A stretch of 64,000 bases of DNA from Lysobacter lycopersici (GTDB taxonomy: Bacteria; Pseudomonadota; Gammaproteobacteria; Xanthomonadales; Xanthomonadaceae). This document shows, one piece after another, positions 21,689 to 22,094 of this stretch. The first letter of the stretch is position 1, and every line of letters starts with the position of its first letter. The notes under the pieces were generated by a model, which was given only the letters and a program-made list of their open reading frames with translations, had not been told where the DNA came from and did no database searches. The stretch spans positions 186,001 to 250,000 of the forward strand of contig NZ_CP041742.1 of NCBI RefSeq assembly GCF_007556775.1, given 5' to 3'. The translations under genes were made by a program, and so were the position numbers.

Positions 21689-21764
21689 GGGCCGTTAGCT
21701 CAGTTGGTAGAGCAGTTGACTCTTAATCAATAGGTCCAAGGTTCGAATCCTTGACGGCCCACCA
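21689..21764 (+). tRNA. tRNA-Lys (anticodon CTT)
   Basis: Acceptor GGGCCGT pairs with ACGGCCC, the anticodon loop is CTCTTAA, and CCA is encoded. Its last 16 nt and the following terminator are repeated at 21919-21971. Confidence 0.95.
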
Positions 21765-21770
21765 ATCCCG

Positions 21771-21801
21771 AAACGCCCGGCACTGCCGGGCGTTTTCTTT
21801 T
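21771..21801 (+). terminator. Terminator after tRNA-Lys
   Basis: Stem AAACGCCCGGC / GCCGGGCGTTT with a 3-nt loop, followed by TCTTTT. A classic intrinsic terminator, duplicated about 170 nt downstream. Confidence 0.9.
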
Positions 21802-21819
21802 CCGCCGCCGCCAAGTCTT

Positions 21820-21900
21820 CGAACCTGCGGTTCGCCCGCTGCGCGGGCCCGGCCACGCGCTGGACGCGTGGCGTTCGCGCGGACGCGAACCGATGGTTCG
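21820..21900. repeat. Array of back-to-back short hairpins (near tRNA-Lys)
   Basis: Consecutive perfect hairpins: CGAAC/GTTCG (21820-21834), CCCGC/GCGGG (21835-21847), GCCACGCG/CGCGTGGC (21852-21872) and GTTCGCG/CGCGAAC (21873-21890). An alternative CGAACC/GGTTCG at 21886-21900 overlaps the last one. No reading frame is supported. A similar run is at 36705-36773. Confidence 0.8.
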
Positions 21901-21918
21901 CGATCCGTCCGCGCTCAC

Positions 21919-21971
21919 CCTTGACGGCCCACCAATCCCGAAACGCCCGGCCTTGCCGGGCGTTTTCTTTT
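21919..21971 (+). pseudogene. tRNA-Lys 3' remnant with terminator copy
   Basis: The last 16 nt of tRNA-Lys (CCTTGACGGCCCACCA) without the rest of the gene, followed by a second terminator hairpin (CGCCCGGC / GCCGGGCG, then TTTTCTTTT). It cannot form a tRNA. It may still terminate transcription ahead of tRNA-Leu. Confidence 0.85.
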
Positions 21972-22009
21972 GCGATCCGCGATCCCGCCGCCAGCTAGAA
22001 TGCCCCGGC

Positions 22010-22094
22010 GCGAAAGTGGCGGAATTGGTAGACGCACTGGATTTAGGTTCCAGCGGGTAACCCCGTCCGGGTTCGAGTCCCGGCTTTCGCACCA
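22010..22094 (+). tRNA. tRNA-Leu (anticodon TAG)
   Basis: Acceptor GCGAAAG pairs with CTTTCGC, anticodon stem CTGGA/TCCAG surrounds TTTAGGT, there is a long class II variable arm, and CCA is encoded. A TAGAAT hexamer at 21996-22001 may be its own -10. Confidence 0.95.

Follow-up and report, generated by a model that had tools for sequence, protein, structure and literature searches.

Elements that integrate at tRNA genes by means of a tyrosine integrase bring a direct copy of the tRNA 3′ end, by which the gene is restored. Copies of a tRNA 3′ end are also found in the tyrT repeats of E. coli, which are tandem units that each begin in the 3′ end of the tRNA, and the guides of IS200/IS605-type elements are about 4 nt in length. 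Among repeats, those of the SMAG type form tandem reiterations that include flanking DNA, according to excerpts of two studies (PMC2613905, PMC3733652). We examined a repeat, here named E, which lies between two copies of a tRNA-Lys 3′ end in Lysobacter lycopersici; X denotes the DNA upstream of E and X′ its second copy directly after E. Compared with integrative elements that target tRNAs, E shares the direct copy of the tRNA 3′ end but has neither integrase nor cargo, is also found at protein genes and has its junction in the T-stem. The tandem units with a tRNA 3′ end are likewise common to E and the tyrT repeats, although E is family-wide and placed at many unrelated genes. With IS200/IS605 and miniature elements, as generally known and as portrayed in excerpts of PMC2817692, E shares hairpin DNA and, if it inserts as proposed below, entry after a short motif and guide pairing at the cut site, but its antisense stretch is often 7 to 13 nt, no transposase is linked to it and its target copy is long.

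The SMAG/GTAG-tagged REP repeats of Stenotrophomonas and Xanthomonas are, in the excerpts consulted (PMC2613905, PMC3733652, PMC2817692), short, palindromic, dispersed, intergenic and downstream of genes like E, and the tandem trait of SMAG is also shared, with E reiterated together with its flanking DNA (up to four E with X). However, E has several stems and a length of about 95 nt, as opposed to 20 to 40 bp for the GTAG-tagged repeats, its foot is GGGTGAG with GTAG or CTAC in 0 of 24 aligned rows, and it has fixed breakpoints and an antisense stretch, neither of which is described in those SMAG passages. Assignment of E to the GTAG-tagged REP/RAYT repeats was thus rejected, as (i) no GTAG-type foot was found; and (ii) E does not flank the Y1 (RAYT/TIRYT) transposase gene at any of 28 such loci. 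Integron attC sites are, as E is, structured, folded as single strands and common in Xanthomonadales (excerpts of PMC8352920); however, the attC boxes GTTRRRY and RYYYAAC were present in 0 of 24 E rows on either strand, and this identity was rejected as well. No description of E was found in a search confined to open-licence literature, and E is regarded here as a variant of the small palindromic repeats; an earlier description elsewhere is possible.

A duplicated tRNA-Lys end and the repeat between its copies

The locus is part of the window, the whole stretch of 64,000 nucleotides that was analysed, in which ARAGORN identified the tRNA array Pro-Arg-His-Lys(CTT)-Leu(TAG). By profile matches, this array is flanked by isocitrate dehydrogenase on one side and tig-clpP-clpX-lon on the other. 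The two 53-bp copies noticed in the sequence-only reading were found to be real (Table 1) and to have the content which that reading gave them, with each copy consisting of the last 16 nt of tRNA-Lys(CTT) including CCA, then a terminator hairpin and then TTTTCTTTT. The copies matched each other within the window at a BLAST E-value of 4.8e-20, so the duplication is not due to chance and a chance repeat was ruled out as its cause. The gene-side junction, T_L/X, is between positions 21750 and 21751 (...GGTTCGAATCC followed by TTGACGG).

Table 1. Positions of the features of the tRNA-Lys locus within the window
Feature	Positions	Strand	Basis
tRNA-Lys(CTT), target gene, intact	21689..21764	+	ARAGORN; Rfam tRNA 76.8 bits
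Copy 1 (X): tRNA 3′ end and terminator	21749..21801	+	51/53 identical to copy 2
E-left: antisense to target junction (21739-21758), 17/20	21807..21826	+	Sequence; longest exact run through junction 4
Repeat E	21826..21920	+	Covariance model R1, 91.9 bits; this copy is among the 24 used in building R1
Stem 1, CCCGC-TGC-GCGGG	21835..21847	+	Sequence
Stem 2	21853..21871	+	Sequence; helix 1 of covariation count
Stem 3, with 5-nt bulge; helices 2 and 3 of covariation count	21877..21914	+	Sequence, fold, covariation
Conserved end CTCACCC; copy 2 starts at 21921	21914..21920	+	Sequence, alignment, arrays
Copy 2 (X′): tRNA 3′ end and terminator, without tRNA body	21919..21971	+	Sequence comparison
tRNA-Leu(TAG), downstream neighbour	22010..22094	+	ARAGORN

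The spacer between the copies (21802-21918, 117 bp) is a complete copy of repeat E and not an empty scar; the next-best place in the window scored 18 bits with the covariance model of E. No gene was recognisable in the spacer, as had been claimed, and the accompanying description as a run of perfect hairpins held by sequence for stems 1 and 2 but not for the bulged stem 3. When the minimum-energy fold of the spacer was calculated, stem 3 was retained and the remainder was paired differently, with folding only moderately above that of shuffles (z -2.29). A consensus scan reported neither terminator nor promoter here, and the hairpins and T tails were read directly from the sequence. Rfam gave nothing near a gathering score for the spacer (rnk_pseudo at 26.6 bits versus 55 and P10 at 18.2 versus 37), and E was rejected as a known Rfam family since these scores are far under the thresholds. 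E-left was found to match the tRNA T-arm in nearly inverted form, its mismatches lying in the middle and its distance to the junction being about 64 nt; a complementarity of 17 of 20 was reached by none of 2000 spacer shuffles. When an RNA fold is predicted for the entire locus, this stretch pairs with the T-arm. The predicted fold of 21689-21975 also pairs the tRNA 5′ acceptor strand with the 3′ end of copy 2 (z -8.27) and loops out X+E in an intron-like manner, of which no claim of splicing is made. The near-inverted T-arm match, the identity of the spacer as a family-wide repeat and the same layout at other genes go beyond the sequence-only reading.

The covariance model, R1, was built from an alignment of 24 E copies, that of the window included. 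The stems were conserved in this alignment and the right end, TCACCC, was invariant except for one base (T90, A92 and C93-C95 invariant). When scored for covariation with the structure derived from the same 24 sequences, 93.1% of pairs were standard, 78 cells were changed on both sides compared with 25.9 in shuffles, and the covariation score was 0.427, with 0.150 for shuffles and no more than 0.100 for slid alignments. E is a structured non-coding repeat family of Lysobacterales. BLAST with the spacer matched at least 204 of 297 family genomes at an E-value of 0.01 or less, with a weak tail that must include chance matches, while R1 at the same cut-off detected E in at least 157 of 198 family genomes and at least 48 of 54 genera. 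In an order-level draw of 151 genomes, at least 29 matched R1 at an E-value of 1e-5 or less, at least nine of these from outside the family. The genome of the window has five copies of E, and four others were found to have 10, 19, 39 and 41.

E was also encountered in other settings. Elsewhere in the genome of the window (L039 1673-2076, at about 2.444 Mb), E-like remnants were detected downstream of tRNA-Lys(TTT) by BLAST (82% over 51 nt) and R1 (30.8 bits). In two genomes of another family of the order (G045 and G054, L266-L274), E is inside near-identical repeats of 170 to 240 bp, each a putative MITE; these enclosing repeats have inverted ends, CTAGTGTGGTG.... The MITE hallmark, inverted repeats at the termini plus a short duplication of the target, is absent from the window. 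Among E copies without X′ (loci L063-L247), the reversed E begins with GGGTGAG, whose TGA is often the apparent in-frame stop of the abutting gene, and the frame of this TGA was coding-like in 34 of 95 copies compared with 0 and 1 for the other two frames.

The X-E-X layout at nine kinds of target

To count the layout beyond the window, 147 distinct E copies were assembled from 106 of the 122 R1 hits (16 weak or truncated hits were omitted by hand) and 42 copies from part of the rows of a further per-genome search. The DNA directly after E was also present upstream of E in 43 of the 147, compared with 30 of 588 control windows further downstream, some of which fall within arrays or at the same gene; the other 104 copies had no X′ above threshold. 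Twenty-eight arrays, each represented by its first E, were hand-picked from the 43 positives and read, with L144 and L160 (score 13) left out. The arrays were assigned by profiles and ARAGORN to nine target kinds: tRNA-Lys(CTT), tRNA-Lys(TTT), tRNA-Ser(gct), tRNA-Arg(acg), a NarL/LuxR-type response regulator, AcnA, GlnA, an HNH protein (the second X-E-X of the genome of the window) and PurA, where the array is at the 5′ end of the gene. All nine have the layout T_L/X-(antisense of T_L/X)-core-CTCACCC/X′, with sharp breakpoints and a narrow length range. On the gene side, all 28 arrays break after CC, 25 of them after ATCC, and the end of E is CTCACCC in 21, with the other seven differing by one or two bases. 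When the two junctions of each array were compared, identity was 0.93 to 1.00 at positions 0 to +8 and at least 0.89 to +24; before the junction it was 0.00 to 0.46, save at -4 (0.82) and at -2 and -1 (1.00). The X+E unit measured (i) 148 to 156 bp at the five protein genes and 147 bp at tRNA-Arg, such that six of the nine target kinds are within 147 to 156 bp; (ii) 164 to 181 bp at tRNA-Lys(CTT), with 170 bp in the window; and (iii) 115 to 134 bp at tRNA-Lys(TTT) and tRNA-Ser. Several of the tandem arrays, which reach four E copies together with X, have a truncated E after the last X (L061, L062, L156, L177 and L245), so the rule of n E and n+1 X was abandoned and this count was not used as an argument. 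A pattern scan of GTDB species genomes revealed 16 stretches with the E/tRNA-Lys junction, 13 of which have the upstream tRNA-Lys in the X-E-X layout; these records are from Thermomonas, Luteimonas and other Lysobacteraceae, plus one titled Xanthomonas sp.

The antisense stretch to the left of the E core was examined for exact antisense runs of at least 7 through or abutting the junction, using 36 arrays and 216 shifted junctions. The 36 were the 28 arrays read plus eight of the 16 GTDB stretches, with L248/L256, L254, L255, L257 and L261 left aside as duplicates of loci already in the set, L249 as a contig edge and L250 as a chance match. Such a run was found in 28 of 36 arrays compared with 10% of shifted junctions, and its distance to the junction was 67 to 78 nt in 26 of the 28 (57 in L061 and 40 in L079). 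The eight without it were the window (run of 4), both tRNA-Ser arrays, tRNA-Arg, HNH, glnA, the response regulator of L139 and the tRNA-Lys of L056. Local alignment of the 28 arrays read gave a mean score of 8.4, compared with 5.3 when junctions of other targets were used, and 17 of the arrays scored above 95% of their own shuffles. The antisense stretch fits the gene-side junction better than the E-side junction. Between genera, the response-regulator site varies (TGAGC, TCTCC and TGTCC), and each variant is paired with a matching antisense. E copies without X′ had no excess of antisense pairing with upstream DNA, and the left arms of dispersed E copies were rejected as the same antisense feature on this basis.

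Empty sites in relatives and the history of the copies

Sixty relatives were searched, and the gap between tRNA-Lys and tRNA-Leu was read in loci retrieved from among them. A single tRNA-Lys 3′ end was the rule. R1 at an E-value of 0.1 or less had no hit in the gap in any of 39 relative loci (one per genome), which means that empty sites exist; the only hit among these loci was outside the gap, 33 nt past the tRNA-Ser(gct) of the same array (L043 1772-1865 in G011, 44.9 bits), a tRNA that carries X-E-X in L167 and L170. Within genus g29, G028 was empty, and G146, G243 and G299 were occupied. Exceptions to the single end were of several kinds, including a tandem partial tRNA-Lys copy without E (G012), a diverged second 3′ end (G013), two whole tRNA-Lys genes (G029) and gap inserts of 13.8 kb (G015, L035), 2.4 kb (G017) and 600 bp (G034), and they indicate that the gap changes by more than one route. 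The 2.4-kb insert (L036) has a histidine-kinase-like gene (HATPase_c, PAS_4). In G015, the second tRNA-Lys part starts near the anticodon and not in the T-stem, and is 3.3 kb downstream with a weak XisH match between (22.5 bits, cut-off 25); this insert is probably an ordinary island at tRNA-Lys. In two further loci (L077 and L078, from G173 and G289), tRNA-Lys is followed by the left part of E only, with no second copy.

These loci bear on the suggestion that the window holds the scar or minimal remnant of a tyrosine-integrase element, with the copies as attL and attR. Part of the integration reading stands, in that direct copies of the tRNA 3′ end surround inserted DNA and single-copy relatives, for which the sequence-only reading had proposed to look, were found. 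The larger inserts of G015 and G017 at the same tRNA and the diverged second end of G013 are also in its favour. However, the spacer is a full copy of a repeat with many other locations, X-E-X is also present at protein genes including the 5′ end of purA, the T-stem breakpoint differs from the start of the repeat in G015, a Pfam scan of a part of the G015 reading frames had no integrase, and none of the relatives examined revealed an element that carries an integrase between these ends. The scar of an excised element is not supported, and we judge an integrase origin to be very unlikely. A selected double terminator that insulates tRNA-Leu, along the lines also proposed in that reading, would make E a mere spacer; the hairpin and T tail are kept in both copies, but most relatives have a single terminator, the gap is just 30 bp in L025, L027 and L043, and the arrays at protein genes (response regulator, acnA, glnA and purA among them), which this proposal leaves unexplained, duplicate coding ends and not terminators. 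It is regarded as extremely improbable.

For the most part, E copies that share a target are most closely related to one another across genera. The cores at tRNA-Lys were nearer to tRNA-Lys copies in other genera (scores of 52 to 58) than to copies of their own genome, which, where available, scored 16 (G000), 23 (G222) and 37 (G146), and most response-regulator copies were likewise closest to same-target copies in other genera. The exceptions, acnA in G146 versus G035 and the response regulator in G138, have cores that resemble dispersed copies; gene conversion may account for this, as may a renewed entry at the identical base. Of 36 family representatives compared at the response regulator, five (G002, G008, G010, G015 and G018) had a second 3′ part adjacent, with unusual limits in G002 and G015. 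Genus-specific variants were found in both X copies (e.g., TTCAC in L056 and L064), while the E cores differ far more between genera; thus, near identity of the copies need not mean the recent origin that it had been taken to suggest. This pattern would fit homogenisation of the X copies. From the patchiness of the layout and the near identity in the window, we infer that the insertions may be old, with loss by X-X recombination and homogenisation of the copies.

Possible insertion or duplication and a proposed role of the antisense stretch

No mobilising enzyme was found for E in searches of Y1 loci, phages, plasmids and RVT_1 genes. R1 at an E-value of 0.1 or less had 0 hits in 28 Y1-transposase loci of 13 genomes (about 1.5 kb around each), GGGGWSAS motifs at some of these loci belong to other repeats, and E was rejected as the repeat of a Y1 transposase. 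Phages had no match to E, and plasmids had only chance-level partial matches at E-values of 0.07 or worse in unrelated GC-rich genera. A target-primed reverse transcription of E RNA, in which the 5′ part of the RNA serves as antisense guide and the second strand is cut at a distance so that about 70 bp of target are duplicated, would be expected to yield the order T_L-X-guide-core-end-X′, and E is strongly structured; however, RVT_1 genes were found in just one of six E-bearing genomes and not in that of the window, and E has no known RNA product, making this route highly improbable.

On balance, we favour a site-specific insertion of the X+E unit with target duplication. The sharp breakpoints, narrow lengths and antisense stretch tend to argue for a directed process. 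The unit would have entered the T-stem of tRNA-Lys after ...TCC in an enzyme-driven and probably single-strand and hairpin-based event, in which the antisense stretch would pair with the target; the layout would be equally expected if E entered some 70 bp further downstream and 70 bp of target were duplicated. The tRNA would stay intact because the inserted unit brings with it, or generates, another gene 3′ end and terminator. The event would be old, and later X-X recombination would expand arrays, homogenise copies or restore the empty site. Counted against site-specific insertion are the lack of an enzyme, the many copies without X′ and without excess antisense pairing, the eight arrays including the window that lack the exact run, the local alignments of which only 17 of 28 exceeded 95% of shuffles, the shorter units at tRNA-Lys(TTT) and tRNA-Ser, and the truncated last E of several arrays, which is as expected from tandem duplication. 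No insertion was observed between close strains.

Tandem duplication at an E that already existed downstream of the gene is the main rival and is possible, though we consider it less likely. Slippage or template switching would proceed from the end of E to the CC of the gene, helped by pairing between E-left and the gene, X would be duplicated with or without E, and unequal crossing-over would follow. Consistent with slippage are the tandem reiteration of SMAG repeats with flanking DNA in the excerpts already cited (PMC2613905, PMC3733652), the CC common to both breakpoints in all 28 arrays, the truncated last E in five arrays, the X with partial E but no X′ at tRNA-Lys in L077 and L078 and the E-free tandem copy in G012. 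The L077 and L078 loci may be deletion products or the intermediate that slippage needs. Counter to slippage, one end is always the last base of E at nine target kinds, X+E is held to 147 to 156 bp at six of them, and slippage offers no explanation for the antisense stretch at near-fixed distance, unless this stretch is what triggers it. A more specific form of insertion, which we hold to be unlikely, would make E a guide-bearing miniature mobile element whose left-end antisense of 7 to 13 nt pairs with the target, with the target opened within the resulting duplex after ...CC, about 70 nt duplicated and genes entered near their ends undamaged.

If the antisense stretch directs insertion, E would be a small bacterial repeat that selects targets through base pairing and leaves behind, at a near-fixed distance, a long copy of the target; we know of no bacterial repeat family with this behaviour. 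Even under slippage, E is a structured repeat, found across the family, by which the ends of genes (e.g., tRNAs, acnA, glnA and response regulators) are remodelled. E also accounts for partial tRNA copies that might be misread as island scars, and its arrays are natural material for the study of concerted evolution.
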